Source: Diploptera punctata (Eukaryota > Arthropoda > Insecta > Blattodea > Blaberidae). From it: 64,000 nt of DNA. Location: NCBI GenBank assembly GCA_030220185.1, contig JASPKZ010010227.1, positions 42,635-106,634 of the forward strand. The letters are read 5' to 3'. The notes under the pieces are model-generated. The model had not been told where the DNA came from, did no database searches, and saw nothing but the letters and a program-made list of their open reading frames with translations. This document shows positions 3,731 through 61,275 of the stretch, piece by piece; the stretch's first letter is position 1; each line of letters opens with the position of its first letter. The position numbers and the translations under genes were made by a program.

Positions 3731-4174
3731 TAATAATAAAATAAATTGTTATAAAAACAACACTATTCTGTAATGAACACTTCAAACATATGAGAAAACT
3801 TAAGTATTCACTAACACAGAACTAGTATATATACAAAAATTCAAGGTGTAGTAACCATTATGTTTCCAAAACTGAGTGTAGCTGCTGACAGTACCTACAA
3901 CTCGCCCTCCCCTCTTACCGCACCATATTACAGTGACCCCTCAAAAGCGGCTACAGAAGTCTGAACTGAACTATATCAACCGTCATGTTTGTATCGTCGC
4001 AATGTATACTATATAATCAATTGAGTTGGTGTTTACTTGATGAAAATCCATATTTATTAATTAAATAAAAATAAAACGTAGTTTTATTTGATTTTCATAT
4101 TTATTATATAATTCAGTGACAGCTGTTTCGGTACCACTATCCATAGTTCTTCTCTTCACCCATATACTCATAAG

Positions 4175-4414
4175 ATGGCAGCCTTTAATAGTTACATTCA
4201 TAGACTTTTAAATATCCCTCTTTCACCCTTGGAATATAATAATGAATTGAATATTATTAAACAATTGGCTGTTAATAATGGATACGATCCTGAAATTATA
4301 GAATGTTTAATTAAGAAGATTAATTACAAAAAAGCAATTAACAAAGTTTTTCCTGTACCCAAGAAAACAATAAGAATATGTCGTAATGTCATACATAGGC
4401 CCACTTTCAAATAA
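4175..4414 (+). pseudogene. PLE reverse transcriptase C-terminal/linker remnant
   Basis: An open stretch of 79 codons, starting M-A-A-F-N-S-Y-I-H-R-L-L and containing N-N-G-Y-D-P-E-I-I and V-F-P-V-P-K. This fits the linker after the PLE RT domain. It ends at a stop, but the region up to 4538 reads on in other frames (an S-K-H-F-K-K-L-N-I-N-V-A-F-K-like stretch) toward the endonuclease. The catalytic RT motifs are absent. Confidence 0.65.
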
Positions 4415-4538
4415 AATATCTAAACACTTCAAAAAGTTGAACATTAATGTGGCATTTAAAACTAATAAAACTCTACAAAATATAATAAAAAAACAATAAA
4501 ACCAAAACAAAAAAGAAAAATTATCAGGTGTATATAAA

Positions 4539-4856
4539 TTGAAGTGTGGCACATGTGACAATGTCTATATAGGACAAACTGGTAGACCTTTTATATCTCG
4601 GATAAAGGAACACATGAGAGCATATAACAGAAATTTAGAAAATTCAAACTATGCTAACCACCTATTCCAATTTAATCATTGTTTCGATCCAAATTTTGAA
4701 ATTTTACATATTTGTGATAAGGGTAAGAAGTTAGATCTTTTGGAGGCTGTAGAAATTAATAAGTTTAAAAGTAGTAAAAAACTGTTAAATTCTCAACTTG
4801 ATTTGAATGAATCCCCTTTGTTAAATTTAAAAAAATATTGTTGTATTGTTGCTTAG
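4539..4856 (+). pseudogene. PLE GIY-YIG endonuclease remnant
   Basis: GIY-YIG nucleases nick target DNA for PLE retrotransposition. The signature is visible: G-V-Y-K-L just upstream (about 4525), K-C-G-T-C, then V-Y-I-G-Q-T-G-R, followed by R-I-K-E-H and the N-Y-A-N-H-L-F...N-H segment. The open stretch is 105 codons, ending with L-L-N-L-K-K-Y. The same reading frame, broken, recurs at 15083-15224. Coding is severed from the RT by frame breaks, so I call it a remnant. Confidence 0.8.
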
Positions 4857-4892
4857 ATCAGTTGGAACACAATTCATAATTTGTTAACATGT

Positions 4893-4925
4893 CTGAAGAA
4901 GGTACAGTGTACCGAAACAGCTGTC
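4893..4925 (+). ncRNA. hammerhead ribozyme core (PLE 3' arm)
   Basis: CTGAAGA (4893-4899), stem II GGTAC/GTACC with loop AGT (4901-4913), GAAA (4914-4917), then the self-complementary stem III ACAGCTGT (4917-4924) and C4925 as the cleavage-site base. This matches CUGANGA...GAAA...UH. Stem III has no loop, so activity would need dimeric RNA. PLE termini are known to carry such motifs. Confidence 0.8.
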
Positions 4926-5079
4926 ACTGAATTATATAATAAATATGAAAATCAAATAAAACTACGTTTTATTTTTATTTAATTAATAGTATACTATATA
5001 TTTTAATTAACCTGTAATTTTCTTTCAACTTATTCAACTAAAAATAAAAACGCTTATTTCACTTATTTATGTGTAGCAG

Positions 5080-5310
5080 CGCACGCTGGGTATTTGGCGG
5101 ATCTTCGTTTTCGCATAATGGTTCTTAAGTCAATACGTCATTTTAGCCTTATACGGGCAATCAACATTCTTGACAGATATTCTCTTGCGCCAGCAGTGAC
5201 ATTTATTTTACCCCTAAAAAAATACTTCAGTCAGAAAACTTGTCCCAACTGGGAATCGAATCAGGTCCTGTTGAGTCTGACTCGGCACGTTGCCACTATA
5301 TCATAGGTGT
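5080..5310 (-). mobile_element. tRNA-derived SINE, family 4
   Basis: The minus strand starts near 5310 with a tRNA-like head: an A-box-like ATAGTGGCAACGTGCC and a B-box-like GATTCGATTCCC. It then extends into an AT-rich body. Only one copy was noticed, so boundaries are loose. Confidence 0.5.
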
Positions 5311-5840
5311 GGACCTCATTGGTCCATGGTTTACACACTATATAACATAATATTCGATATTATCCAGGGACATGCAGAGATCCAGAAAAATGACCAAAAC
5401 AGCCGCGTAGTCTAGTTTTTTCTTACTATCTATGAATACATTGATGTATGTACAATATTAGTAATTATACGTGGAATGTACAGGGAAAGGAGACATTTAT
5501 TTTTGCAAAATATGTGGAGTGAAAGTGACTGCATAGAAAACAAAAGTTTACAGTTGTCCAAGTTTACAACATGCTGGTAAAAAAAAAGACGTATTCACAA
5601 CACCAATAAAAAGGAAACTTCCTTTTATTGACACATATTCTATGTTATGTGACTGTTTGAACTTTACACAAAGCATAATTAATGTTTAAAACAAGTGTTT
5701 TAATTATCTAAAAAAGTATTAAAATGAATCTACGTCCCCCCCCTCAAACCGCCTCTGCCCTAGGGGCCCATATGGCTCGAAGTGGGATTGCTTTACTGTT
5801 TCATCAAAATTTGTCTAGGAATGTGTCTTACAGGCAAATT
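5310..5840. other. unassigned AT-rich sequence
   Basis: No supported gene. Short A/T-rich stretches with no recognised repeat except the approach to the SINE at 5841. Confidence 0.5.
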
Positions 5841-6178
5841 GAGAACCGTAGCCGAGGGGTTAAGGCAAGAAGCCTTGGCGCAGAGCTACGGGACTTGTGC
5901 TGGTTCGAGTCTCCATGGGGGAAGAAAATTTTCTCATGGAATTTCGGCCAGTATGGGATCGGTGCCCACCCAGCATCGTGAGGAATTTGGGTAGCTACAA
6001 TAAGTAGCGACTCCAGGTTGAGAATACAAGCTATAACGGCTGGGGGATCCGACATGCTGACCACATGTCACCCCTACACTGGCTAGATGATCGTCTACCT
6101 CTGTGATTAACACATGCGGATGTGAGGCCAGCAGCCGGATGGTCAGCCAAGAGCCTTCTAGGTCTGTCGCGCTTGGAG
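5841..6178 (+). mobile_element. tRNA-derived SINE, family 5
   Basis: The head resembles a tRNA-Ser/Leu A box (GTAGCCGAGGGGTTAAGGC), with a B box (GGTTCGAGTCTCC) at about 5903. The body includes TTTCGGCCAGTATGGGATCGG and GACATGCTGACCACATGTC. A reverse-strand relative covers 42140-42435. Confidence 0.7.
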
Positions 6179-6184
6179 AAAAAA

Positions 6185-6290
6185 AAACGTGAGCTACATG
6201 ATTTATATAGTAAGCCAGATATAATAAGAAAAGTTAAGTCTCGTAGACTGCAATGGACAGGAAATTTGGCACGAATGGGAAACAGTTAGT
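6185..6290 (+). mobile_element. LINE fragment, dominant family
   Basis: Matches the dominant LINE (intact at 61.3 kb) over the AGTTAAGTCTCGTAGACTGC stretch and neighbouring sequence. Truncated on both sides. Confidence 0.7.
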
Positions 6291-6299
6291 CTCACCTTT

Positions 6300-6815
6300 A
6301 TTTGGAGTTATTAGAGCAATTTAATTTAGTTAACTCTTATTTCCCTAAAGATGTCATTAATGGAATGCGGTCAACCTACCGACCCAAAGTCGCAAATAAA
6401 GGAGCATATAATAGCAAGATGAAAAACGGGTAGCTCAATGGTACCACAGGTACATTAACACTACAACTGTTCTTTTCCAAGTATTTATGACAGAATAAAA
6501 TGCAAACATATTGTTCCAAATTTTATACTTACACAGTTCCTCACTGGGCGCGGTAAATTTGGCCAATACCTCCAGAGATTCAACATCAGAGAAAACGCAA
6601 GTTGTAATAATTGTGGAATTAGCAATTAAAGCGTTGAACATATTATATTTGATTGTCCTTTATTCGGGAGCTAAAGATTCGAAATCACTAAATAACATCG
6701 CCGGTTTAAGTATACCACCCATTACAGAAGTGCTTTTGACAGAAAAGAACTACAGACTTTTTAATGTTTTTATAAATAAAGTTCATAAAAACTTTAATTT
6801 TAGATAAAATTATAA
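6300..6815 (+). mobile_element. LINE C-terminus with Cys-rich motif
   Basis: A broken frame encodes F-L-T-G-R-G-K-F-G-Q-Y and then C-N-N-C-G, the start of a C2HC zinc-knuckle, followed by an F-D-C-P-L-Y-like segment shifted in frame. This fits the ORF2 C-terminus of R1/Jockey/I-type LINEs. It ends near the stop at about 6805. Confidence 0.6.
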
Positions 6816-7515
6816 AATAGGAGATTCTTTACGACATGTGACGCGAACATTTTTTTTAGTTCCAATCACACACCATGCGCATGCGTCAACAAACGCGAAG
6901 CGATTTACACTATGAAATGACGGATGCAGCCAACATATACACGATATTTAGCTAACCTAACGCAATTTAAGTGCTCTAACCTGTGAAAGACCAACCTAAA
7001 AGCTAACCTAACGCAATTTAAAGCACTCTAACTTGTGAAAGAATGTACCGTCCAAAAATAAATAGTAAGTTCTGAAATTTTTAAGCATGTGTGTACAGTT
7101 AATTAATAAGTTATATTATAATCTATGTTAACCGCATGGAACATGACTTTGTTTTTGCTTAGAATATTCGTTAAAATCAATATGGCTAAGACGTCTTCAT
7201 CATACGTATGTAGTTAAATATCATAGAAAAATGTATTGAAATAATCGTTAGAGAAAAAATTAAAAACCATTGTAAATGGTGGGAAATAACTTTAAAAATA
7301 GAATCCTAAGAATAAAATTGGACAGGAGTTTATGACGGAATTTTAAAAAAAAAGTCGTGTTACATGTTGATAAGGAATAGCCATAAAATGAATCACAACT
7401 TTGACACAAACTATAACCCTTATGTACCTTAGGTGAAATAGGGTTTATACATTTCGGATATTAAATAATAACCAACCGAGCCAATGAGACATTTAATAGG
7501 CAACTAATGTATTAC
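6816..7515. other. unassigned sequence with a local duplication
   Basis: Contains a short duplicated block: AGCTAACCTAACGCAATTTAA-type sequence at about 6950 and again at about 7001. No coding frame recognised. Confidence 0.5.
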
Positions 7516-7519
7516 TAGA

Positions 7520-7835
7520 ATGATGAAGGTCGATATTTTTTTTCTTCGAGGCATCTCTATTCAAAACACACTCTATCGATGGTTCACGGAGAAAGACTTT
7601 CCAACTAAAATTAATCTACTAGAAGACATTGATATCATGAAAGAAATCAACAACACCTTGCTACTAAATGAGAACACACCCCAAACGTACAATCCCTTAT
7701 ACGAGATAGTTAAAAACCAACCAGTTCTTACTGGCGACGCATCAAGACCATCAACGTCTACAGCGTCTTAAATACAACAACTAGTAGCGCATACTCATCC
7801 TGCTGATGATGGAAGTTAACTTCCGAAAGGCCTCC
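7520..7835 (+). mobile_element. Penelope-like element 3' end
   Basis: An open stretch at 7520-7771 contains L-L-N-E-N-T-P-Q-T-Y-N-P-L-Y, fitting the extreme C-terminus of a PLE protein. It is followed by H-P-A-D-D-G-S around 7794-7814, which overlaps a hammerhead core. It is 5' truncated. The family differs from the 4-kb PLE. Confidence 0.6.
7803..7835 (+). ncRNA. hammerhead ribozyme core (PLE end)
   Basis: CTGATGA (7803-7809), stem II GGAAG/CTTCC with loop TTAA (7811-7824), GAAA (7825-7828), stem III palindrome AGGCCT (7828-7833), and C7834 as the cleavage base. Stem I could start with G7802-C7835 and T7801-A7836. All core nucleotides are present. Confidence 0.8.
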
Positions 7836-8019
7836 AATTGATAATATTTTTAATAAATTACGGTATTTTAACAAAGTTGAGGTCGATGTCACTGCCAACA
7901 GGTACATTATAATTTTTAATTTTTATCTTATGACTATTCACCTCAACGAAATTTGATATGAATTTCATTAGTAATAACTAACTCTTTATTCAGGCTTAAA
8001 GATTTTTTACTAACCTGAA

Positions 8020-9990: not shown

Positions 9991-10120
9991 TTTGTTAGCA
10001 TTTTCGTTTAGTCAACATTAATAAGATTCATGATGAAGTTCCGTTGAGGTATTATTCAAAATGAATACATAAAATTATGAAATATTTACCTAAAAGCTCC
10101 GTCTCCTCAACTTAATAAAG

Positions 10121-11130
10121 TTGAGAAGACTGACCTTTTAGGTAAATATTTCATAACTTAATAATAAAGTTGAGGAGACTGACCTTTTAGGTAAATATTT
10201 CATAACTTAATAATAAAGTTGAGGAGACTGACCTTTTGGGTAAATATTTCATAACTTAATAATAAAGTTGAGGAGACTGACCTTTTAGGTAAATATTTCA
10301 TAACTTAATAATAAAGTTGAGGAGACTGACCTTTTAGGTAAATATTTCATAACTTAATAATAAAGTTGAGGAGACTGACCTTTTAGGTAAATATTTCATA
10401 ACTTAATAATAAAGTTGAGGAGACTGACCTTTTAGGTAAATATTTCATAACTTAATAATAAAGTTGAGGAGACTGACCTTTCAGGTAAATATTTCATAAC
10501 TTAATAATAAAGTTGAGGAGACTGACCTTTTGGGTAAATATTTCATAACTTAATAATAAAGTTGAGGAGACTGACCTTTTAGGTAAATATTTCATAACTT
10601 AATAATAAAGTTGAGGAGACTGACCTTTTGGGTAAATATTTCATAACTTAATAATAAAGTTGAGGAGACTGACCTTTTAGGTAAATATTTCATAACTTAA
10701 TAATAAAGTTGAGGAGACTGACCTTTAGGTAAATATTTCATAACTTAATAATAAAGTTGAGGAGACTGACCTTTTAGGTAAATATTTCATAACTTAATAA
10801 TAAGGTTGAGGAGACTGACCTTTTAGGTAAATATTTCATAACTTAATAATAAAGTTGAGGAGACTGACCTTTTGGGTAAATATTTCATAACTTAATAATA
10901 AAGTTGAGGAGACTGACCTTTTAGGTAAATATTTCATAACTTAATAATAAAGTTGAGGAGACTGACGTTTTAGGTAAATATTTCATAACTTAATAATAAA
11001 GTTGAGGAGACTGACCTTTTAGGTAAATATTTCATAACTTAATAATAAAGTTGAGGAGACTGACCTTTTGGGTAAATATTTCATAACTTAATAATAAAGT
11101 TGAGGAGACTGACCTTTTAGGTAAATATTT
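10121..11130 (+). repeat. 49-bp tandem array, about 21 copies
   Basis: The unit is TTGAGGAGACTGACC...AGGTAAATATTTCATAACTTAATAATAAAG, spaced 49 bp (starts at 10121, 10170, 10219, 10268...11100). One unit is a base shorter near 10725. Units differ by a few substitutions (TTTT[A/G]GG). The unit equals the inverted arm plus core of the enclosing foldback element. Confidence 0.95.
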
Positions 11131-11840
11131 CATAATTTTATATATTAACTTTATTAAGTTGAGGAGACGGACCTTTTAGGTAAATATTTCATAATTTTAT
11201 ATATCAACTTTATTAAGTTGAGGAGACGGACCTTTTAGGTAAATATTTCATAATTTTATATATCAACTTTATTAAGTTGAGGAAATTATATATTAACTTT
11301 ATTAAGTTGAGGAGACGGACCTTTCAGGTAAATATTTCATAATTTTATATATCAACTTTATTAAGTTGAGGATATTATATATTAACTTTAGGCCTATTAA
11401 GTTGAGGAGACGGACCTTTTAGGTAAATATTTCATAATTTTATATATTAACTTTATTAAGTTGAGGAGATTATATATTAACTTTATTAAGTTGAGGAGAC
11501 GGACCTTTCAGGTAAATATTTCATAATTTTATATATCAACTTTATTAAGTTGAGGTGATTATATATTAACTTTATTAAGTTGAGGAGACGGACCTTTCAG
11601 GTAAATATTTCATAATTTTATATATCAACTTTATTAAGTTGAGGAGATTATATATTAACTTTAGGCCTATTAAGTTGAGGAGACGGACCTTTTAGGTAAA
11701 TATTTCATAATTTTATATATTAACTTTATTAAGTTGAGGAGACGGACCTTAAAGGTAAATATTTCATAATTTCATATATTAACTTTATTAACTTGAGGAG
11801 ACGGACCTTTCAGGTAAATATTTCATAATTGTATATAGGC
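11131..11840 (+). repeat. second-order array of about 59-bp units
   Basis: Units read GACGGACC instead of GACTGACC and add TTTTATATATTAACTTTATTAAG, giving a 59-bp period (starts 11159, 11218, 11277). Shorter half-units of about 30 bp are interspersed (e.g. 11277-11306). This looks like an older or separately homogenised block. Confidence 0.85.
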
Positions 11841-12049
11841 TATTAATTTTCGTTTAACTGACTAAGCTGCACCTTGTATTTAGATTTTTTATTCATATAT
11901 TTTCAACCCCAGTTTGTTAGCCGCTAATTCTAGTGACATAAAGGTTGTCTGATCTACCAATTATGTCAGTGTCTTCGGGAAAAATTAAATCAGAGGTTCT
12001 AATTTAGGCTTGAAGTTCTTTTACAAGCCAAAAAAAAAAAATCAGATTC

Positions 12050-14590: not shown

Positions 14591-15082
14591 AAACTTATTT
14601 TATTTAACGATATGTTGGAATAGGCAGATACTCTCGACCATACAGTAAACAGACAAGACACTTTTCGGAACACAGAATGACCAAAATACTTATCCGATAG
14701 GTACTTACATTTTAATCCGACATAACATTTTATAATGAGATAACGAAATAAATGTATCGTTATTCGGAAGTGATAAAGTTGCGAGTGCCGAATAATTCAT
14801 TCCTGCCGAGCACCAAACAGTGGAATCTTGTGAAAGTTAGATAAATAAGTAATTAACCCCACTAAATAAGTTTCTTATTTGTTGATGTCGCTCTCCTCTT
14901 AAATCCTCTGTTACACCTGTGATAATTGTCGTTGCTCATCGAATCCCAAAAGAATCTGAGAACACTAGTCCGGAGCCAATATACTCATTTTAGAGCCGAA
15001 CAATAAGGATTCCACATCCGTTCAAAACCCAAATGAACCAAAACCCCTGTTCACATGGTATATCTACAATAAATTATACAAG

Positions 15083-15472
15083 AGCATATAACAGAAATTT
15101 AGAAAATTCAAACTATGCTAACCACCTATTCCAATTTAATCATTGTTTCGATCCAAATTTTGAAATTTTACATATTTGTGATAAGGGTAAGAAGTTAGAT
15201 CTTTTGGAGCTGTGTAGAAATTAATAAGTTTAAAAGTAGTAAAAAACTTAAATTCTCAACTTGATTTGAATGAATCCCCTTTGTTAAATTTAAAAATTTA
15301 AATAAATATTGTTGTATTGTTGCTTAGATCAGTTGGAACACAATTCATAATTTGTTAACATGTCTGAAGAAGGTACAGTGTACCGAAACAGCTGTCATTG
15401 AATTATATAATAAATATGAAAATCAAATAAAACTAAGTTTTATTTTTATTTAATTAATAAAATTATTATTTA
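15083..15472 (+). mobile_element. PLE 3' end, second copy of the 4-kb family
   Basis: Near-identical to 4618-4990: a GIY-YIG C-terminal remnant (R-A-Y-N-R-N-L-E-N-S-N-Y-A-N-H), hammerhead and AT-rich arm. 5' truncated at 15083. A GAGGC/GAGC indel shifts the frame near 15207. Confidence 0.85.
15364..15396 (+). ncRNA. hammerhead ribozyme core (PLE end)
   Basis: Same core as at 4893: CTGAAGA (15364-15370), GGTAC/GTACC stem II, GAAA (15385-15388), palindromic ACAGCTGT, C15396. Every core base is preserved although the neighbouring coding frame is broken. Confidence 0.8.
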
Positions 15473-29715: not shown

Positions 29716-29778
29716 GTTATAATTAAATGTTTAACATTAAGCGATGCAAGCTTAATATGGAATGATAAGAAAAATAAA

Positions 29779-29848
29779 TGCCTGGACGGGATTCGAACCC
29801 GGATCTCTGAGTCTGTACCTCAGCGTGATATCCATTACACTACCAGGC
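29779..29848 (-). pseudogene. tRNA-like sequence, left arm
   Basis: GCCTGGT start, CCAGGC end, 5-bp anticodon-type stem CTGAG/CTCAG with 7-nt loop GTACAGA, and B box GGTTCGAATCCC. The T stem has a mismatch and the D arm is weak. About 70 nt. More likely a tRNA relic used as a Pol III promoter than a functional tRNA. Confidence 0.6.
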
Positions 29849-29944
29849 GAATCCAATTCAAACACTTATTTTTCTTATATATGTATTATATTTATGTATT
29901 ATATTTATGTATATATAAGAAAAATAAGTGTTTGAATTGGATTC

Positions 29945-30014
29945 GCCTGGTAGTGTAATGGATATCACGCTGAGGTACAGACTCAGAGATCCGGGTTCGA
30001 ATCCCGTCCAGGCA
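29945..30014 (+). pseudogene. tRNA-like sequence, right arm
   Basis: Reverse-complement twin of 29779-29848, with no base differences that I could find. Confidence 0.6.
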
Positions 30015-30032
30015 TTTATTTTTCTTATCATT

Positions 30033-30038
<6 letters not shown>

Positions 30039-31009: not shown

Positions 31010-31800
31010 TCGCGATAGTGAGCAAATTTTAAGATACAAGAAACATTCTACTAAATAAACACAAAGAAAGTGGACCTGGGAGTAAACATCAATAAAACTA
31101 AATATATGCTCACACATAGAAATATATTATATGATGGAAATGGACAGTTAATGACAAATGAGGGAAATTTTGAAGTGGCTGCTTTCAAATACTTAGGAAC
31201 AATAATTACAAATAGGAATGAGATGCTCAGAGAAATTAAACATATGCTCAATTCTAGAAAGCATGCTATTATGCATTACAGGGATTTTTGTTGTCCCAAT
31301 TTCTCTAAAAAAAAGTTAAATAGAAAATATATATAACTTATATTCTTCCAGTTATATTATAGGCCTATGGGTGCGAAACATGGACTCTTAATTTATTTTA
31401 GATTCCAGAATAAAGTTCTTAGGAAAACATTTTGACCAAAGAGAGACGAACAACAAGCGAATGGAGAAGACTGTATAGCAGTGAGACTGCTACATGATAT
31501 TTGTGGAAAAGCAGATATAATAAAGGTAAAGTTATCCCACTATAGGCCTCAGGAGGCCCTTGGGGTAGTCGGAGGTTAAGGCTTCCACTTTTCTGGACAA
31601 TCGGCACTTGATGTCAGCTGAATTGTCAACCCTGCGTGACGGCTGCCTTCACCCCCAGAACAAGCGTCTAGTTCTCATTTCCATTAGAGGCTGAGTCAAC
31701 ATCAGGGCCAGGGCCATAGTGCCACTATGTTACAGCGTGCCCCCAACCAGATATAATAAGAACGGTTAAGTCTCGTAGACTAAATTATGGCAACTTATGG
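31010..31800 (+). mobile_element. LINE fragment, dominant family, with SINE inside
   Basis: A second, separate copy of the same region. It is split at 31524 by a minus-strand SINE and resumes at 31748 (CAGATATAATAAGAACGG). Confidence 0.8.
31524..31747 (-). mobile_element. tRNA-derived SINE, family 2 (5' truncated)
   Basis: Antisense of the body of the 43951/44475 SINEs. Flanked by CAGATATAATAA at 31512-31523 and 31748-31759, a clean 12-bp target duplication. The tRNA head is missing. Confidence 0.85.
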
Positions 31801-34970: not shown

Positions 34971-36115
34971 ACGCAGGAATTGCGTAAACTAAGCGAATTC
35001 TTCAGCATCTCATTACCTTTAACTTCGTACAAATTTCTAACAAATATATTAGTATCCAGACTTACTCCCTATATTGATGACGTAATGGGCGATAATCAAT
35101 GTGGATTTAGAAGAAACAGGTCTACAATAGATCAGATTTTTAGTATAAGACAGATTATAAAAAATAAATGGGACTATAATGGCACTGTGCATCAATTATA
35201 TGTAAAATTAAAAAAGGCATAAGATTCAATTAAGAGGGAGGAGTTATATAGTATTCTATTGGAGTTAGGAATTCTAAAAAAGTTAGACTTATTCGAACGT
35301 GTCTAAACGGCACAAAGAGTAGTGTGCGCGTGGACGAAATTTTCAGATACTGGTACCTTTGAAATTCATAACGGGTTAAATCAGGAAGTTACACTATCTC
35401 CTCTACTATTAAATTTTGTACAGAGCATGAAATATTTAGAGGATAAACTTTATGATGATGGAGTAGTATTACTGGGCGATACGGAGGAGATACTAAGGGG
35501 CAACGCACTCTGCTGAGTAACACTAAGAAATTGGGACTGGAATTAACATCAATAAAACTAAATATATGTTTACACATAGAAATACATTATATAATGGAAA
35601 TGGACAGTTAATGACAAAGTAGGGAAATTTCGAAGAAGTGGCTGAATTCAAATACGTAGGAACGATGGATACAAACAGGAATGAGGTGTACAAAGAAATT
35701 AAATATAGGCTCAATAAATTATGGAAATACAAGCTACTATGTGTTAGACTATATGGATTCTTGTCGTTCCAACTTCTCTCTCGAAAAAAAAAACACATTT
35801 GAAGTATTTGAGAATAAAATTCTTAGGTAAAATTGTGGACCAAAGGGAGACGAACAGATATATGAATGGAAGAGACTATATAACAGTGAGCTACATGATC
35901 TTAATGGGAAACCGGATATAATAAGAACAATTAAGTCTCGTAGACTGCGAAGGGCAGAATATGGATACGAATGGGGAATAAAAGAGGAGTATGGACACTC
36001 TAGTAGGAAAATTAGAGGCTAAGAATGAGGTGAGAGAATAACATTATCCATGTTTTTATTATTGATTTCGTACATCTCAATGATGGATAAATCATATTTG
36101 AAGAGAAAAATTATA

Positions 36116-36189
36116 CGCTCAGACCGGGACTTGAACCCGGGACCCTTGGTTCTCTAGACCAAGTGCTCTACCAACTGAGCTACCTGAGC
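36116..36189 (-). pseudogene. tRNA-like, anticodon-like AGA
   Basis: Acceptor GCTCAGG/TCTGAGC, D arm GCTC/GAGC, T arm CCGGG/CCCGG with loop TTCAAGT, 74 nt. The anticodon helix is 6 bp (or 5 bp with a 9-nt loop). It lacks the long variable arm a tRNA-Ser should have, so I doubt it decodes. Confidence 0.6.
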
Positions 36190-36408
36190 AAGTACCGATC
36201 TAAACGCAAATCTTTCTCTATATACATTGTAATTCCCATCCACCAAATGCTGTGAAGCCATGCTTCTATCTTGCAAATGGCGGCTCCTTTATTAAGAAGA
36301 CATATTTGGGAATTATACATTACAGCCAGTACGGCTTTTTCCAGGTTTTTATTATTGATTTCGTACATCTCAATGATGGATAAATCATATTTGAAGAGAA
36401 AAATTATA

Positions 36409-36482
36409 CGCTCAGACCGGGACTTGAACCCGGGACCCTTGGTTCTCTAGACCAAGTGCTCTACCAACTGAGCTACCTGAGC
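36409..36482 (-). pseudogene. tRNA-like, second copy
   Basis: Identical in the compared positions to 36116-36189; lies in the left arm of the palindrome. Confidence 0.6.
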
Positions 36483-36518
36483 AAGTACCGATCTAAACGC
36501 AAATTTAGATCGGTACTT

Positions 36519-36592
36519 GCTCAGGTAGCTCAGTTGATAGAGCACTTGGTCTAGAGAACCAAGGGTCCCGGGTTCAAGTCCCGGTCTGAGCG
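36519..36592 (+). pseudogene. tRNA-like, third copy
   Basis: Opposite-strand twin with one noticed change in the D loop (GTTGATAG for GTTGGTAG). Anticodon-like AGA at 36553-36555. Confidence 0.6.
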
Positions 36593-36689
36593 TATAATTT
36601 TTCTCTTCAAACATTATCCATGATTTAAAAGGGTGAAATACATAGTGAATGACCGATAACATTAGCTCGAAATATAGATGTATGCTTAT

Positions 36690-37650
36690 ATATGCGCGGC
36701 CATATTCCTAAGAACTTTATTTTCAAATGTTAGTAATCTTTTCTCCTCCCTTGCAGTAATAGACCGTGTTTCGCTTTCATATAACTGGAAGAATAAAAGT
36801 TTTATGGATTTTCAATCACTTCTTCAAAATTGCCCTCGTTTATCATTAGTTATCTATTTCCATTATAATTGAATTTCTATGTGTGAATATATATTCAGTT
36901 TTTTAATTATTTTTCACTGAGAGTAATTAATATTATAATTACAAAGAAATAAACGTTATCTCAGTCAAAACATAATTTTATTGTGTCGACGTTTCAATCT
37001 CACATATGGAGATTGAAACGCCGACACAATAAATGTATGTTTTGACTGAGATAACGTTTATTTCTTTGTAATTATAATATATTTAGTTTTATTGCTGTTT
37101 ACGTCCAGTCCAACTTCTTAATGTTACTCAATAGAGTGTGTGTTTTGGACCTTAGTATCTCCTCGCTATCAGCTAATAATACATCAGCATAAACTAACAG
37201 CTTATTAATACCTTTGAGTTGTAGGCCTTCTTTATCCCGTAAGGATATGATGGCATGTTCTAGTACAAAATTAAATTGTAGAGGAGATAGTGCAACTCCT
37301 TGCTTTCACACAATGTGCATTTCAAAAGTATCCGCAAACTATTTGCCTACACGCACCCTACTCTTTGTACCATTTAGACACATTCGAGTAACTCTTCTTT
37401 GGAATTACGAAGTTCAGGATGAAACTATATAACTTGTCCCTCTTAATTGAATCTTATGCCTTTTCAAAATCTACATATAGTTGATATACAGTGCCATTAT
37501 ATTCCCATTTCTTCTCTAAAATCTATTAGGGGCCTATATACTAAAAATATGATCAATTATAGATCTGTTTCTTCTAAATCCACATTGACGATCTCCTATT
37601 ACGTCATCAATATAGGGATTAAGTCTGAATCCTAAAATATTTGTTCAATT
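36690..37650 (-). mobile_element. LINE fragment, dominant family, with foldback inside
   Basis: Antisense C-terminal and RT regions: TTCCTAAGAACTTTATTTTC at 36707, RT at 37090-37650. Interrupted by the insertion at 36903-37078. Confidence 0.8.
36903..37078. mobile_element. short PLE-type foldback (36.9 kb)
   Basis: Flanks ATATTCAGTTTT (36891-36902) and ATATTTAGTTTT (37079-37090) form an 11/12 duplication. A 29-nt tail, then an arm from 36932 and its reverse complement ending at 37078, with a few mismatches. The centre has GAAACG(T/C)CGAC on both strands, the 3' half of a hammerhead, but no CUGANGA box. Confidence 0.8.
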
Positions 37651-40966: not shown

Positions 40967-41004
40967 AAACTAGTTTCGGAACATAGTTTCTGTTCCATCC
41001 TCAG
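40967..41004 (-). ncRNA. hammerhead ribozyme core (PLE end)
   Basis: Minus strand: CTGAGGA (41004-40998), stem II GGAACA/TGTTCC, six perfect pairs with a 7-nt loop, GAAA (40977-40974), palindromic ACTAGT stem III, then T as cleavage base. A 3-bp stem I (ATA/TAT) is possible. Confidence 0.75.
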
Positions 41005-41386
41005 TATCGTAACGACCGTTGTTCTGTCGTCTTGAAGAGATGTCCTTCTCTCCTTCCATTGGCTGACTGAAAAACCTAGAAACCAGGTCATTCTCACCGG
41101 GAATTTCAAAGTTCATTAATTTCTTCTTTTCGCTCTTTTGAATGTAGATCTTTTCCCAAACAGTAAGTTCTTTTGGTTTTTCTATTTGTTTTAATAATTT
41201 AGCTTCTTTCTCAATAAGATGTTTTTCAGACCATGCATGGGCAGCCACTGCAGATTTTTCTACTTCCCCTTTCTTGACATTCCTGAGATGTTCTTTCACT
41301 CTAGTTTTCAAATTTCTCTTAGTTTTTCCTATGTAGAATTTCTCACATTCTTCACATTTAATTTGATAAATCCCTGATTTGTTTTC
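40970..41386 (-). pseudogene. PLE GIY-YIG endonuclease remnant
   Basis: 139 open codons. G-I-Y-Q-I-K-C (GIY), E-K-F-Y-I-G-K-T-K-R (YIG) and R-V-K-E-H-L-R are visible, followed by the H-A-W-S-E-K-H region and E-K-I-Y-I, ending G-T-E-T-M-F-R-N. A frame break just upstream separates it from the RT linker. Its C-terminal codons overlap the hammerhead core. Confidence 0.8.
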
Positions 41387-41575
41387 TCTTCTTTAATTTT
41401 CTCATTCTTATTAGGTCTAATCAGTCTACTGATGCTGTAGTCATTTTTGGGTGCTAACCTTATGTTGAAATCTTTAAAATTTTTTTGAAACTTGTGGTGT
41501 TTTAATGGATGATATGTGAATATTCTAAATTTTACATTATCTTCTTTAACTTTTAGAAGAGTGCTTTGATTAATA

Positions 41576-43929: not shown

Positions 43930-43950
43930 TACATCTCTAGGGGGGGGGGG

Positions 43951-44255
43951 ACGCGCCGTAGTGTAGTGGGTTAAGGCACTGCGCTACAAGTCGGAAGGTC
44001 GAGGGTTCGAGCCCCATGGGGTCAGGATTCTTAAACTGACCCAAACCCTCTGGCGGCACTATGGTCCTGGGGTCGACTCAGCTTCTAACGGAAATGAGTA
44101 CCAGAAGCTTGTTCTGGGGGTAAAGGCGGCCGTCACGCAGGGCTGACAACCCGGCTGACATAAAGTGCCGATTGTCTGGAAAAAGTAGGAGTCTTAACCT
44201 CCTACTACCTCAAGGGTCTCCTGAGGCCTGTCGTGGGATCACGTTACTTTACTTT
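43951..44255 (+). mobile_element. tRNA-derived SINE, family 2
   Basis: A box TAGTGTAGTGGGTTAAGGC and B box GGGTTCGAGCCCC. The body has TCTGGCGGCACTATGG and GCTGACAACCCGGCTGACAT. Flanked by TACATCTCTAGGGG (43930-43943) and TACATTTCTAGGGG (44256-44269), 13 of 14 matching. An extra G-run precedes the element. Confidence 0.88.
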
Positions 44256-44350
44256 TACATTTCTAGGGGATTCTATGCCACCGCACAACCTACATAAATT
44301 CAAATAAATAAACGGAGAAACACACAATTTGTTGTTGCAGTATATGAACA

Positions 44351-44783
44351 ACTTTTATAATATTCATGATGTGTTCCGTTGAGGTATTATTCAAAATTAA
44401 TATATAATTATGGAATATTCACCTGAGGAGACGGACCTTTCAGGTGAATATTCCATAATTATATATTAATTTAGGGGCACGCCGTAGCGTAGTGGTTAAG
44501 GCACTGCGCTACAAGTCGGAAGGTCGAGGGTTCAAGTCCCGGTGGGGTCAGGATTTTTAAACTGACCGAAACCTTCTGGCGGCACTATGGCCCTGGGGTC
44601 GACTCAGCCTCTAACGGAAATGAGTACCAGCCACTTGTTCTGGGGAAAGGCGGCCGTCACGCAGGGCTGACAACCCGGCTGACATCAAGTGCCGAATGTC
44701 TAGAAAAAGTGGGAGCCTTAACCTCCTTCTACCCCAAGGGCCTCCTGAGGCCTGTAGTGGGACTACTTTATATATTAATTTAG
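44351..44783. mobile_element. PLE-type foldback (44.4 kb) with nested SINE
   Basis: 12-bp duplication AGTATATGAACA at 44339-44350 and 44784-44795. A 43-nt tail (44351-44393) with TTCCGTTGAGGTATTATTC, then an arm, a GGAGACGGACC core and the reverse-complement arm. The right arm is interrupted by a SINE at 44475-44769. Without the SINE the element is about 120-130 bp. Confidence 0.88.
44475..44769 (+). mobile_element. tRNA-derived SINE, family 2 (nested)
   Basis: Full-length copy: A box TAGCGTAGTGGTTAAGGC and B box GGGTTCAAGTCCC. 16-bp duplication TTATATATTAATTTAG at 44459-44474 and 44770-44785. Younger than the foldback it splits. Confidence 0.9.
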
Positions 44784-44799
44784 TATATGAACAGTTAAC

Positions 44800-49443: not shown

Positions 49444-49991
49444 CAGGGTGTAACAAAAAGGTATATAAAAAAATTTGGATATTTAGGATAAAGGATAAAA
49501 AAAATGTTATATGAACATAGGTCCGGAAATTGTTTATTTCTTGGGTAGAGCTCTTTTTCTACAACTCTGCTTACACGGTGAGATGTGTAATACGTACATA
49601 GCTGTCACGTGGCCATAACCCCACAACAGAACAGTTGTTCAATTGTGCAGTAGTAAACATGCGCTTTTACATCTGCAACTCCAGTTCAAGATGTAGAGAT
49701 TCTTCGTGCTCGTATTCTGGAAGGGTCTACATCAGCGTATTAGGGAGTCCATGCGATGGCGAGATATCGGATGCATTGGAGCTAATGGAGGCCTTTTTGA
49801 ACATTTTCTGTGATTTTCTGTTATTCCACGGTTCTGTTATTGAATGTTCTTGTATGGGGTTCAGCTGTACAAAAAGTGCTCTAAAAAGGAAATAAAGCAT
49901 TTCCGGACCTATGTCAATATAAGACTTTTTTATGACCTACATGCAAGAAATATTTTCCCAAATAATTTGACATATCTTTTCGTTACACCTG
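49444..49991. mobile_element. TIR element (CAGGGTGTAAC ends)
   Basis: CAGGGTGTAACAAAAAGGTA at the left and, inverted, CAGGTGTAACGAAAAGATA at the right. Inner inverted blocks (ATAGGTCCGGAAAT at 49518 and its complement near 49900) extend the match. About 548 bp with no transposase frame, so MITE-like. Target duplication unclear. Confidence 0.65.
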
Positions 49992-50910: not shown

Positions 50911-51061
50911 TGATGATTGTATTGTATACGGTAGAAACATTGTTCTCAGGCAACATCGTATTTTACGGGAAATAAGACTGAATACAGCATCAGATAGTAC
51001 CAATAGTTAGGAACTTCCTCCATTCCTTATTTATTTATTTATGACAAAAGAAATATATATG

Positions 51062-51357
51062 TTCACAGTAATATAATGTACGGTTAAAAACTATAATATA
51101 GTTACCTTGTAGGTCCGTCTCCTCAACTTAAGTTCTTTTAAACTATGTAGGCTTTCGGGACTAGTCCCATCATCAGCAGAATGCATTAGGTCCGTTCTTG
51201 TTGACCCTTGTTGAAGCACTGACTTGGTTGTGAAAATTCTCACAACTTAAGTTGAGGAGACGGACCTACAAGGTAACTATATTATAGTTTTAACCGTACA
51301 TTATATTACTGTGAACTAATACCTCAACGGAAAACCACCATGAATTTTACTAGTATC
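51062..51357. mobile_element. PLE-type foldback (51.1 kb)
   Basis: 12-bp duplication GAAATATATATG at 51050-51061 and 51358-51369. Arms 51062-51132 and 51246-51315 are reverse complements and contain GGTCCGTCTCCTCAACTTAA. The 42-nt tail (51316-51357) lies on the right. The 113-bp centre has a hammerhead core on the minus strand. Confidence 0.88.
51147..51176 (-). ncRNA. hammerhead ribozyme core (foldback centre)
   Basis: Minus strand: CTGATGA (51176-51170), stem II GGGA/TCCC with CTAG loop, GAAA (51156-51153), then GCCTAC. Stem III is imperfect compared with the palindromes elsewhere, so activity is less likely. Confidence 0.6.
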
Positions 51358-51522
51358 GAAATATATATGTGCCTACCTAATTTGATGTTTACGCTTTTTC
51401 CATGGTGTCTATAGATACCTTTATTTACCGGTACAATTTCATTGTGAGCAGAATTTAAGCTCCACCCTGCTGTTATTTTCACGTTAATGTGGGATATTTT
51501 TCATTAAACTGTTTGAAAATAC

Positions 51523-53674: not shown

Positions 53675-53754
<80 letters not shown>

Positions 53755-55858: not shown

Positions 55859-55927
<69 letters not shown>

Positions 55928-55928
55928 T
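55859..55928 (+). repeat. (TTA)n microsatellite
   Basis: About 23 ATT units. Confidence 0.95.
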
Positions 55929-55934
55929 TATTTT

Positions 55935-56430: not shown

Positions 56431-56799
56431 GTTTTGCGCTTTTTATACATAAACCTAAAAGTGTATGTTCGTATAGAGAGAAAAAAAATGTTATAGTGAA
56501 ATTTGTGATGGGAAAGTTGGTGCCTACACTATCTGCAATGCAAGATTTCTCAACGCGTGTTGTCATACACAGCACGTAGGCCTACATATTGCAGACTGTG
56601 TTGTGACTATTAACATCGTGATTTGTATTATTGCTGCCGTTTTTCAATAGAGTTTAGTCCTTCAGTTTTTCCAATGACAATGCATATAGAGAAATTACGA
56701 CACAAGGATTTCCCCAATTGTTATTACTTATTATTCTCGCAAGAAAACATTAAACTCAAAATAAAAAAAAAAAACTATTATTCTCTCAGTTATATTATA

Positions 56800-57655: not shown

Positions 57656-58080
57656 ACCGAAACCATCTTTACTACAAAAGAACACAAGATCGCGACTTTA
57701 TAAGATTCTTGCAAGACCAGTATTAAGATATCATAGTGAAGCATGGACAATACGAAGAAGAGATGAATGCCGAATAACAGCAAATGAGTTGTGATTTATG
57801 CGCCGTACAGCAGGCTATACAAAGCGGGACCATGATAGAAATGAGGAAATTATGGAAGAGTTGAGTGTAGAACCCATTCTCCAACATGTACAAAACTGCC
57901 AGAACAACTGGAAACCCACCTTCAACTAATGCCATGTCATACAATTTCAAAATCTATGCTTTGTTACTATCCTTAAGGCAAAAGATCGCAGGGACGTCCA
58001 AAAAAGCGCCGGATGAAAAATTACTCTTTGAGACCTTAACAGACCTCATGGCCTAATACTTGCATGAATGCTGATGATGA
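57656..58080 (+). mobile_element. LINE C-terminal fragment, other family
   Basis: S-E-A-W-T-I-R-R-R-D-E-C-R-I-T and N-E-L-x-F-M-R-R-T-A-G-Y-T type sequence, then R-R-P-K-K-R-R-M; tail GCTGATGATGAT. Confidence 0.65.
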
Positions 58081-58545
58081 TTATATTATATGGATGCAAA
58101 ACATGGACTCTTACTATAAGGGAAGAGAAACGATTATGAGTATTTGAGAATAAAGTTCTTAGAAACAGTTTTGGATCAAAGAGAGATGAACAGACAAAAA
58201 GAGATGAATGGAGAAGACTGTATAACAGTGAGCTACATTATCTTCATAGGAAACCAGACGTAATAAGAACAGTTAGGTCTCGTAGACTATGATGAGCAGG
58301 ACATGTGACACGAATGGAAAATTAAAAAGGGACATGGAAACTTCTTGTAGAAAAACCAGAGGGAAAAAACGCCAGTTGATAGACCAAGAATGAGGTGGGA
58401 GAATAACATTAATTATTATTTGAGGGAAGTAGATTATACAAGGGATGACTAGAAAACATCAGCTCAGGATAAGGAATGTATGGGGAGCTTATGTCGCCGC
58501 GGCCATGAACCTACGGGTTCGATAGTACCAGTGAGTTAGTTTGTC
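58080..58545 (+). mobile_element. LINE 3' end, dominant family
   Basis: From L-Y-G-C-K-T-W-T-L to ACGGGTTCGATAGTACCAGTG; several frame breaks. Confidence 0.8.
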
Positions 58546-58739
58546 TCTTTCTCTCTAAACCCCCGTACTTCCCCGATAGATATTAGGGTGCTCCCTAGTG
58601 GGAGTGTTTTAACTAAGCTAATTTAGTTACTCTTATTTATTCGTAGATGTCAACGAGTGATATGGGGTCGGCATATCACCTCAGCAAGACGTGTAGTGGC
58701 AAATGTATTACTTGGATGGATGAGGGTAGGTAAATTTTG

Positions 58740-58920
58740 CCCAGAGGCCTCTTTATTCAGACTTGTGGTTCTTTTACGAGCCTAAAATCTTCAGATTCGG
58801 GACCCACCGCTTAAAGTCCCTCACGAAAGACTTGTCCTTTCCACCCCGACCAAGTTCGAACTCGCGTCCCTCGAAACTTGAAACAAGGAACATAACCACT
58901 AGATCGCCGATAACCGCTTT
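58740..58920 (-). mobile_element. tRNA-derived SINE, family 3 (minus)
   Basis: Antisense head with CGGCGATCTAGTGGTTATGTTCC and a degenerate B box. Body runs toward CAAGTCTGAATAAAGAGG. Confidence 0.65.
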
Positions 58921-59100
58921 TCAAATGCTTTCCTTTCCATTATAGTAAATGGAAATCTACAGAAGTGGGCATTTTGAAACAACTGAAATTCCAACGTATT
59001 CTCCATTGTGCATGCATAAGAATAAAATATTGCGTACTTAATACATTAAAATTGTAATTATATATAAATTATATAAACATGTGCTAGTTAATATATTTTT
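58915..59100 (+). repeat. unclassified repeat shared with 52225-52400
   Basis: See 52225; the same order of phrases with substitutions. Confidence 0.6.
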
Positions 59101-59339
59101 TTATTTTCTTTATTTGGAGTGTTAGAGAGTGAACTACATTTTCTTAAAAAGGTAAAACCATTATTCGACCAATGAAAATACAGTCATAAATCTGTTTTTT
59201 TACATTACAATTATTAATTGTCCATTCATATTAGGTTATATATTTATATTTAGTTTTAGTGATATTTGCACTTTTATTTCTTCTTGCAAAATTACTACTT
59301 TATAGTTAGTATACTTCAATCAGGCCTATAAGTTGAATT

Positions 59340-59435
59340 TTTTAAAATGTATTTTAAAAATGTATTTCATCTATTTAAAACATTAATTGTCTGTATCACT
59401 TTGTCCTTGAGGCAATCCTCTAATGAGGAAAGTTT

Positions 59436-59445
<10 letters not shown>
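59340..59445 (+). repeat. unclassified repeat shared with 15640-15760
   Basis: GTCCTTGAGGCAATCCTCTAATGAGGAAAG is the reverse complement of 15670-15700. Confidence 0.6.

Positions 59446-59509
<64 letters not shown>
59442..59509 (+). repeat. (TAA)n microsatellite
   Basis: About 22 AAT units, at the end of the repeat above. Confidence 0.95.
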
Positions 59510-59510
<1 letters not shown>

Positions 59511-60089
59511 GTTTTAATCCATCACATTATATGGTTTATATTATTTTATGTATATCATTCTCCATTGCATTAATTTTTTTGTTAGAAGAAGTCTTACTCC
59601 CAATACATTATAATTTTTTATTTGTATGTGTCATAAATTATGTAAAAATGAAACTTGCCCCTAACTTTAAATGTAGGCTTATATATTCTATTTGTATTAT
59701 TCGTGTAACTGAACTGCACCCGAGCACGAGTACTTGCTCATTCGTGTGTCAATACTGTATATAACATTTATTTGTAAATAAAATGGATTCTTATTCATAG
59801 TAGAAAAAAAAAAGTATTTTAAAAGTTGTTAAATTCCATTTATGTAAAAGTGGTCTAAGTCCAACTAATAGATCTATTAATTTACCATTATTTACAATTT
59901 ATTTTTGTATACAGAGTTACATAAGTTTCACAAGAACTTGGGGAAACCCGAGTAATTACGAGAGATTTAAAAACAAAGTTTACGCATCACACAAGAGGGC
60001 GGGTAGAGATGGATGACCTCATTGTCTGGTAGAGAAAGCTTGTGGAATGTGTTCAACTTTCACGACATTCTTTCTTTCTTCCGACACAG

Positions 60090-60248
60090 TTTCCTCTGAA
60101 CGCGATGGACGATGCCCGGCCCTCAAGGAGTGGGGTGTCTGCCCTATCCCAGCCCACAAATGTACGAGAGACGAGGACTGCCCAGGAAATTTGGATAAAT
60201 GTTGCATCACTGCATGCGGACGAGCCTGCGTGAATCCACTCTATACGG
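60090..60248 (+). CDS. WAP (four-disulfide core) domain exon
   Basis: This 159-nt exon encodes a complete WAP domain. It starts after an acceptor with a T/C-rich tract and CAG at 60087-60089, and ends at donor GTAAGC at 60249. Phase is 1 in and 1 out, the symmetric phase usual for shuffled extracellular modules. The encoded segment has eight cysteines in WAP spacing: one in GRCP, then GVC, HKC, the D-E-D-C motif, the KCC pair, TAC and RAC, closing with V-N-P. WAP domains form four disulfides in secreted proteins; known members act as protease inhibitors, antimicrobials or cuticle/immune factors. Which applies here cannot be told. The reading frame is clean and all cysteines are present, so I read it as functional. 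Later exons would lie to the right of the window. The 5' partner is the signal-peptide exon at 1478-1532. Confidence 0.85.
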
Positions 60249-60268
60249 GTAAGCTTCAAATATCCGTC

Positions 60269-60288
60269 GCCTCCGTGGCGCAATCGGC

Positions 60289-60325
<37 letters not shown>

Positions 60326-60342
60326 GAGCCCACCCGGGGGCG
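60269..60342 (+). tRNA. tRNA-Asn (GTT)
   Basis: A 74-nt cloverleaf folds fully. The 7-bp acceptor pairs GCCTCCG with CGGGGGC (one G-T pair), the D stem is GCGC/GCGC, the anticodon stem is TTCGG/CCGAA with loop CTGTTAA, and the T stem is GGTGG/CCACC with loop TTCGAGC. The discriminator is G. The anticodon GTT at 60303-60305 reads Asn codons. A T-run at 60345 onward is a normal Pol III terminator. A and B boxes are intact. It lies 20 bp downstream of the WAP exon donor, in the same orientation, inside the next intron. It looks like a genuine gene rather than a SINE head because all stems are intact and no SINE body follows. Confidence 0.93.
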
Positions 60343-60702
60343 AATTTTTTTTAAACTTACTAATTACCTATATGGTCATTGGCTGCAATATTACCTATTA
60401 TTAATTACCTTAATTGAATTTAATATTATATTTTTTTACAAAATTATATTTTTTTTCTACATAAAATACTTTATTAATGTATTACAGTTATGAAATTTCC
60501 ATGTTGTATTCAAAACATTTCTTCAGTTATTTAAAATTTGACGAGTAATAAAAATGTAAATATCTATTTATTTATTGAACTATTGTTAGGTCATGTGTTA
60601 AAGTAACTTAATAATTTAAGTGAAGTCACAAGACAATAAACGACTATGAAAGAAAAAAAAAATACGCTGAAAAATACAATAATACGTAGCCTAATAATTA
60701 AC
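60343..60702. other. unassigned AT-rich intron sequence
   Basis: Starts with the Pol III terminator T-run of the tRNA; no other feature. Confidence 0.5.
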
Positions 60703-60800
60703 AAAAATATGTAGTAAAATTGTAGATTTTCACGGCAGATATTTTGATTCATGTATTTTATGTATTTCGGGCTAAATGGCCGTGGTCTGGTTTTATTAAC

Positions 60801-60839
60801 ACTCAACGTTTCGTCTACTACTGCGGTAGACATCCTCAG
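60801..60839 (-). ncRNA. hammerhead ribozyme core, left arm
   Basis: Minus strand: CTGAGGA (60839-60833), stem II GTCTAC/GTAGAC, six pairs with a 7-nt loop, GAAA (60812-60809), ACGT stem III, then T as cleavage base. Confidence 0.82.
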
Positions 60840-60929
60840 GAGATTCTGCGTGCTCTTTGACCTCTTAATTCTTCAAATCTCTGCAGCCGACATCTGAAGA
60901 ATTAAGAGGTCAAAGAGCACTAGAATCTC

Positions 60930-60967
60930 CTGAGGATGTCTACCGCAGTAGTAGACGAAACGTTGAG
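60930..60967 (+). ncRNA. hammerhead ribozyme core, right arm
   Basis: CTGAGGA (60930-60936), stem II GTCTAC/GTAGAC (60938-60956), GAAA (60957-60960), ACGT stem III (60960-60963), T60964 as cleavage base, and stem I CTC (60927-60929) with GAG (60965-60967). All three stems can form; stem III would be intermolecular. Confidence 0.85.
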
Positions 60968-61275
60968 TGTTAATAAAACCAGATCACGGCCATTTAGCCC
61001 GAAAGGCATAAAATACATGAATAAAAATACATAGGTTAAAAAAATTAACAATAGTACGGAGTCTAAAATTGATCAAATAAATGAGCTAAAATTTAACAGA
61101 AATACAGTACAAGGTGGGATTCAGATATATTTTGTTTAATTTGCTTCCAAGAGAGGAGAAAGCCATTGAAGGTTTCTGCAGGCAAATAATTATGCTTCAT
61201 CCATAGTCCTGTTTACAAAAGAAAATTGTCCATATCCGGTTTTAGTTTCCTTACTTACTTACTTACTCACTGGCA

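Follow-up and report, generated by a model that had tools for sequence, protein, structure and literature searches.

In a 64,000-nucleotide stretch of the genome of the blaberid insect Diploptera punctata (contig JASPKZ010010227.1, positions 42,635 to 106,634 of the forward strand; hereafter, the window), we analyzed eight foldback insertions, which we name E1 to E8, and consider it probable that the enzymes of Penelope-like elements (PLEs) made them. For E1, E2, E5, and E6 it is very likely, and for E4 and E7 it is likely, that they are insertions by PLEs of the type that carries a GIY-YIG endonuclease; E3 and E8 would be RNAs that a PLE enzyme reverse transcribed. An initial annotation had proposed that one family of foldback parasites mobilized by a PLE would explain all eight. 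The PLE part of that proposal has good support at E1, E2, E5, and E6 and is likely to hold for E4 and E7, but at E2 and E4 to E7 truncated PLE copies are explanation enough and no parasites are needed; the parasite idea survives for E3 and E8 only, which hold a tRNA-like fold and lack a hammerhead core. The combination of inverted arms, short duplications, and a tail on one side only has been published as a PLE signature, and the layout itself is thus already known. New is the support for the known PLE model that comes from hammerhead motifs, from the recurrent tail ends of one family (family B), and from a family-specific helix between arm and tail.

The common layout (duplication, one-sided tail, inverted arm, remainder, second arm, duplication) is real but uneven in strength. 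Arms were detected for 8/8 insertions in an inverted-repeat scan of the window (391 inverted pairs, of which up to 70 were listed). Exact flanking duplications were found at E1 (12/12), E2 (11/11), E3 (13/13), E5 (12/12), and E6 (13/13), those of E3 and E6 running 1 to 2 bases into the arm end, and E4 has an imperfect one (13/14); we regard the duplications as confirmed for the first five and probable for E4. The tails, put at 29 to 46 nt in the initial annotation, range more widely, from 27 nt (E4) to 54 nt (E2). Among 21 other inverted pairs, hand-picked as controls from those listed, the longest flanking duplication was 8 bp; many of the listed pairs seem by their look to be inverted copies of reverse-transcriptase sequence. 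Duplications of at least 11 bp were accordingly present at 5/8 insertions versus 0/21 control pairs (Fisher 0.0005). Compared with random positions at the same spacing, the P values were 0.012 (E1), 0.011 (E2), 0.023 (E3), 0.032 (E5), and 0.025 (E6), as against 0.20 for E4 (exact match only), 0.080 for E7, and 0.81 for E8 (simple repeats filtered); the abundance of repeats in the window keeps these single-element values modest. E8, proposed as an eighth member, sits in (TA)n. A strict blind scan for the layout among 2336 direct-repeat pairs (flush arm, tail of 20 to 60 nt, arm of at least 20/24) picked out E1, E3, and E6 plus two 9-mers; since the same scan with the right copy displaced reached 1 to 5 hits, it is by itself not decisive.

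Coding sequence links the first of these insertions to PLEs. E1 contains the remnant of a GIY-YIG endonuclease, with 10 relatives at 48 to 62% identity, and it has an uninverted, tailless sibling at 15 kb. The E1 arm and this sibling stop at the identical base, which supports the PLE reading; no duplication of at least 8 bp was found around the sibling in the boxes searched. The E1 tail starts 3 nt upstream of an ATG, presumably the start codon. A further uninverted remnant, at 41 kb, contains a GIY-YIG open reading frame (ORF; Pfam PF01541, 5.5e-8), whose protein matches a Diploptera punctata protein at 97% over 81%; no relative of it was found in viral contigs, and the GIY-YIG alignment revealed no related loci in the contigs of viral and prokaryotic collections. 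The Pfam scan covered six ORFs of the window, all outside the interiors of E2 to E8. It gave no match to a telomerase-like reverse transcriptase (RT) domain in the ORF upstream in E1 or in the one before the 41-kb endonuclease; both copies are truncated, and our claim for E1 and for the 41-kb piece is accordingly limited to PLE fragments and does not extend to complete elements.

Judged by their sequences, E2, E5, and E6 are one PLE family, B, which corrects the initial annotation. All three have the tail core CCTCAACGGAA...ATGAAT in common; the arm core GTTGAGGAGACGG is present in E2 and E6, and GAGGAGACGGACCT of it is kept at the center of E5. The three insertions have different duplications; measured from one ATG, the ends of their tails lie at 17, 18, and 21 nt, i.e., within 4 nt of one another. 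The interior of E5, previously read as the loop or body of an insertion at 44351–44783, turned out to be a later, nested tRNA-derived short interspersed element (SINE) with a 14-bp duplication of its own, and the right E5 duplication begins at 44782. More copies of this SINE, whole or partial, lie at 43948–44246 and 31527–31710 (90% and 86%). Within E2, the family B arm sequence has grown into 49-bp and 59-bp tandem repeats (10113–11742), and the interior of E2 is apparently a minisatellite born of a pseudo long terminal repeat (pseudo-LTR). A decayed, uninverted PLE-like remnant at 7.8 kb carries the arm-tail helix of family B (GTTGAGGT...ACCTCAAC) together with its ATGAAT. Its protein is weakly similar to that of E1 (E 0.004), a protein database search gave no homologue of its ORF, and no duplication of at least 9 bp was seen in the boxes searched around it. 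The family B sequence pattern had no match in the viral and prokaryotic collections. E4 and E7, for their part, resemble fragments of the pseudo-LTRs of two more PLE families.

Hammerhead motifs recur in these sequences. A loose search for the core plus stem II returned nine sites, compared to 0.75 by chance. When all parts were required (CTGANGA, a stem II with four or more pairs, GAAA, a self-complementary stem III, a cleavage triplet, and two or more pairs in stem I), six motifs were found, in E1, its sibling, both E7 arms, and the 7.8-kb and 41-kb pieces, as compared to 0 in 150 random windows generated by a first-order Markov model. These six represent four distinct cases, as E1 and its sibling are one family and the E7 arms form one palindrome. 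Candidate type I minimal hammerheads would hence lie in the pseudo-LTRs of all five of these pieces. PLE hammerheads are described as minimal variants that are short of helix III nucleotides and may cut as dimers (PMC7761336), a description that fits the self-complementary stem III of the motifs in the window. Rfam reported many microRNA matches, all located on palindromes or simple repeats and below gathering scores.

Arm and tail can pair with each other through a helix that differs between families. The best helix was ATGAAAATC/GATTTTCAT for E1 (p 0.015, here and below relative to 400 shuffled tails), GTTGAGG/CCTCAAC for E2 and E6 (p 0.042 and 0.030), ACTGAGA/TCTCAGT for E4 (p 0.035), CACGGC/GCCGTG for E7 (p 0.042), GTTGAGGT/ACCTCAAC for the 7.8-kb piece (p 0.035), and TATGAGGT/ACCTCATA for the 41-kb piece (p 0.017), with a combined value of 6.6e-5 for five families. 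Folding of the tail on itself was considered as a common feature and dropped: Of the eight tails, only those of E3, E7 (z −2.30), and E8 clearly beat their shuffles.

A published experiment suggests how such copies could arise. The purified protein of an Anolis PLE cleaves and elongates both DNA strands and initiates at two positions inside the RNA, and the tail corresponds to the sequence separating these positions (PMC11167929). Two internal starts and two-strand extension predict an insertion that begins with a duplication, a tail, and an inverted arm and ends, after the remainder, with the second arm and the duplication, and whose end points are constant within a family, which is what family B displays. 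By analogy, we infer that this enzymology made the copies in the window. The PLE protein would cut both strands of AT-rich DNA 11 to 13 bp apart, and each free end would prime reverse transcription inside the PLE RNA, at one of two adjacent start sites near the junction of pseudo-LTR and ORF. An end starting at the outer site would acquire the tail and the other end would remain tailless, after which the two DNA copies, running inwards in opposite senses, would be joined. Different arms would then reflect different PLE families, and short interiors would mean that both copies stopped early; E3 and E8 would be nonautonomous RNAs copied alike, with a tRNA-like domain instead of the hammerhead. 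The arms of E1 and E7 extend beyond the hammerhead cleavage site, and unprocessed RNA is the main template in vitro according to the authors of the Anolis study (PMC11167929). An inverted pseudo-LTR with a 31-bp tail and duplications of 8 to 10 bp, as well as the mobilization of unrelated sequence between pseudo-LTRs, have been reported before (PMC3846280).

Several observations weigh against this PLE reading. The duplication of E7 is not convincing: The 10/12 pair of the initial annotation exists (60703–60714 and 61023–61034), but three more nearby 12-mer pairs are likewise 10/12, and an 11/12 pair (60693–60704 and 61040–61051) lies 10 bp away from the right arm, such that the annotated pair is no better than neighboring chance matches and the duplication is not supported. 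The E1 endonuclease (PF01541, E 0.00035) scores 21.3 bits, slightly short of the cut-off of 22.6. Rfam gave no hammerhead call, either for the entire window at E ≤ 1 or for four short stretches covering E1, E6, E7, and the 7.8-kb piece at E ≤ 10. The three remaining sites of the loose search are a degenerate motif in E6, which lacks the self-complementary stem III, and two unrelated ones, probably chance by their look; E4 has a half motif only, read by eye at the center of its arm, and the loose search found no core in E3 and E8. The arm-tail helix was spotted by eye before testing, with limits for the 7.8- and 41-kb pieces that we drew ourselves, and it does not hold up in E5 (p 0.135, with a truncated arm and a cut that included some loop) or in E3 and E8 (both p 0.99). 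The E1 tail start also disagrees with the commonest Anolis start, which is 111 to 118 nt inside the ORF (PMC11167929). Since the start site did not differ between strands in that work (PMC11167929), tailless and two-tailed foldbacks would be expected as well if each end chose freely, and none occurred among the pairs checked, the list of the initial annotation having been chosen for one tail. Lastly, no sequence link of E3 and E8 to a PLE was seen.

E3 and E8 differ from the other insertions in bearing tRNA-like folds, which score 57 to 60 bits in E3 and 46 bits in E8. In E3, tail and arm are present twice in tandem, 293 bp apart, and over 168 aligned bases the two units differ at two positions only, both in the flanking duplication. 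The first tail (36346–36389) is followed by CCTGG and the terminal tail (36053–36096) by the CATGG of the duplication, which places the outer start site within a base or two. The anticodon is AGA in E3 and ACA in E8; the E3 fold does not have the long variable arm expected in tRNA-Ser and is presumably tRNA-Lys-like in character. The A and B boxes of RNA polymerase III (Pol III) are perfect in two E3 units and in the right E8 arm; in a tRNA-Asn of the window that served as a control, no A/B pair matched the box pattern. The folds are enclosed by stems, which measure 11 bp in unit 2 of E3 (p 0.009) and 13 bp in the two arms of E8, a single palindrome (p 0.002 and 0.003), compared to p 0.16 for the control tRNA-Asn and 0.52 for E3 unit 1, which lacks the stem because the inverted arm adjoins it. 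Where arm and tail meet, the tails of E3 and E8 fold into a hairpin (z −1.85 and −2.87). Folding by energy alone yields cloverleaf-like stems and the tail hairpin for E8, and a non-cloverleaf fold for E3. A T5 run after the tRNA was considered as an argument against Pol III read-through and dropped; the SINE in E5 has one too.

These features make it a real possibility, somewhat short of an even one, that E3 and E8, and possibly more of the insertions, are true parasites, i.e., short nonautonomous RNAs that have transcription signals of their own and borrow the PLE enzyme like animal retrozymes, with the tRNA-like domain replacing the hammerhead. The 293-bp tandem unit of E3 is close to the retrozyme monomer of ~300 bp (PMC7229834), and the intact boxes, the retained tRNA fold, the flanking stems, the tail hairpins, and the missing hammerhead core all point the same way. 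Speaking against it, there are only two such loci within the window, no known PLE has a matching tail, both insertions lack the arm-tail helix of the PLE families, E3 unit 1 has no flanking stem, and the energy-only fold of E3 is not a cloverleaf. We put forward only tentatively the more general proposal that PLE RTs have tRNA-type parasites of their own, short RNAs transcribed in tandem in which a conserved, non-decoding tRNA fold, set in a flanking stem with a tail hairpin, would replace the hammerhead and which would insert as foldbacks with PLE-type tails. Literature searches, outside which most subscription papers fell, listed no tRNA-bearing PLE; short nonautonomous Penelope elements are mentioned in butterflies (PMC6685494). 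The tRNA patterns of E3 and E8 had no match in the viral and prokaryotic collections.

Alternatively, E3 and E8 could be ordinary SINEs of tRNA origin, or tRNA genes that had been captured, and a later rearrangement would have made them palindromic; we consider this unlikely. Their tRNA heads with perfect Pol III boxes would suit this origin, as would the presence of a normal SINE within the window, inside E5. Cockroach SINEs begin 11 bp ahead of the A box (PMC9191728), and the arms of E3 and E8 reach 11 and 29 nt further upstream than that; moreover, the tail is one-sided, and the E3 duplications adjoin the tail on one end and the inverted arm on the other. The SINE nested in E5 has both the boxes and the 11-nt spacing, obeying the rule of the Blattella SINEs Sbg1 to Sbg9 (PMC9191728), unlike the palindromic E3 and E8.

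An origin of the foldbacks as DNA transposons of Foldback or Mutator type, which have long terminal inverted repeats, is very improbable: Long inverted arms and duplications of 11 to 13 bp, near the 9 to 11 bp of Mutator-type elements, would agree with it, but symmetric ends flush with the duplication would be expected, whereas E1, E3, and E6 have a one-sided tail, three family B copies are asymmetric in like manner, and such units hold hammerhead motifs and GIY-YIG ORFs (the search for transposases was confined to the six ORFs scanned against Pfam). Equally improbable are chance hairpins beside AT-rich direct repeats in a repeat-rich window, which would accommodate the single-element P values of only 0.01 to 0.03 and the hits of the displaced controls, but not 5/8 against 0/21 pairs, shared family ends, and hammerhead motifs.

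Compared to known systems, the insertions resemble Penelope/Poseidon-type PLEs (Adineta vaga Pen2a_Av and Anolis PAc), which have an inverted pseudo-LTR, short duplications (8 to 10 bp in A. vaga), a GIY-YIG domain, a hammerhead, and an optional tail of 30 to 40 bp at one end (PMC3846280, PMC11167929). The GIY-YIG ORF of endonuclease-bearing (EN+) PLEs is present at 41 kb and, just under the cut-off, in E1, and inverted pseudo-LTRs with one-sided tail and short duplication occur exactly in E1, E2, E3, E5, and E6 and with 13/14 in E4. Unlike in those PLEs, we mostly observed short pseudo-LTR foldbacks without coding sequence, with duplications of 11 to 13 bp, and a tRNA-like fold in place of the hammerhead in E3 and E8. 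Animal non-LTR retrozymes share with E3 a noncoding tandem unit of ~300 bp and a presumed PLE partner (PMC7229834), but E3 and E8 have no hammerhead core and are foldbacks instead of plain tandems. Helenus and TRIMp3 likewise carry a tRNA-like sequence with Pol III boxes in the terminal repeat of a short nonautonomous retroelement (PMC10886601); Helenus elements are LTR elements with duplications of 4 to 5 bp, a primer-binding site, and a polypurine tract, as opposed to the 13-bp duplication, PLE-type tail, and foldback of E3.

PLE mobility is poorly understood (PMC11167929). Independent insertions of one family that record two RT start sites, together with the arm-tail helix, make the in vitro model testable from sequence. 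A tRNA-like piece where relatives carry a self-cutting RNA, as in E3 and E8, may be a new twist. If these two belong, PLEs too would support tRNA-based parasites, and the tRNA fold may do the job that the hammerhead does in coding elements; such parasites would then relate to PLEs as SINEs do to long interspersed elements and Helenus to LTR elements.

Table 1. Positions of the insertions and related features, numbered within the window.
Feature	Position	Strand	Basis or remark
E1, PLE family A 3' fragment	4004..5000	+	inverted-repeat and duplication scans
E1 duplications GTATACTATATA	4004-4015, 4989-5000	+	
E1 tail	4016-4054	+	
E1 inverted arms	4055-4134 and 4909-4988	+	coding remnant in between
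E1 GIY-YIG endonuclease remnant	4500..4856	+	Pfam PF01541 E 0.00035; 10 relatives
E1 candidate minimal type I hammerhead, core	4893..4917	+	stem III ACAGCTGT next; motif search; not called by Rfam
PLE-like remnant, decayed and uninverted, a relative of family B	7508..7975	+	ORF end, hammerhead motif, helix, ATGAATTTCATTAGT
Hammerhead motif of 7.8-kb remnant	7803-7828	+	
E2, PLE family B foldback; duplications ATTTTCGTTTA	10000..11856	-	
E2 tail	10011-10064	-	
Uninverted E1 sibling, 96%, without tail	15081..15459	+	similarity stops at E1 arm end
Hammerhead motif of E1 sibling	15364..15388	+	motif search
E8, palindrome with tRNA-like fold per arm, in (TA)n	29717..30038	+	
E8 tail	about 29717-29754		
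E8 tRNA-like folds	29778-29849 and 29944-30015	- and +	
E3, tRNA-bearing foldback; duplications AACATTATCCATG	36040..36622	-	two tail+arm units 293 bp apart, one inverted arm
E3 tRNA-like fold, unit 2	36116..36189	-	
Other E3 tRNA-like folds	36409-36482 and 36519-36592	- and +	
E4, PLE-like foldback; duplications ATATATTCAGTTTT / ATATATTTAGTTTT (13/14)	36889..37090	-	half hammerhead motif, arm-tail helix
Uninverted PLE remnant at 41 kb	40970..41392	-	GIY-YIG ORF 41392-40970, hammerhead motif 41004-40974
E5, PLE family B foldback; duplications AGTATATGAACA	44339..44793	-	duplications 44339-44350, 44782-44793
E5 tail	44351-44393	-	
E5 arms	44394-44426 and 44440-44472	-	
tRNA-derived SINE (44474-44768) nested in E5	44460..44782	+	own duplication TATATATTAATTTA
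Nested SINE duplication TATATATTAATTTA, 14 bp	44460-44473, 44769-44782	+	
E6, PLE family B foldback; duplications GAAATATATATGT	51050..51370	+	
Degenerate hammerhead motif in E6 interior	51176-51153	-	
E6 tail, right side	51317-51357	+	
E7, PLE-like foldback	60705..61029	.	inverted-repeat scan; duplication not supported
E7 arms	60740-60847 and 60922-61029		
Hammerhead motifs in both E7 arms	60839-60809 and 60930-60960	- and +	motif search; not called by Rfam

Elsewhere in the window, an older inverted pair at 49498–49931 has arms of 66 bp with 54 matches and no duplication longer than 6 bp. RT ORFs (RVT_1) of another retroelement, to which several of the window's inverted pairs seem to be related, occupy 61276–63104 on the minus strand. 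The tRNA-Asn used as a control is a canonical tRNA gene (GTT anticodon; 60269–60342, plus strand; 66 bits) with eight consecutive T after it, and it is overlapped by a cysteine-rich frame (60017–60307) that we take to be WAP-like.

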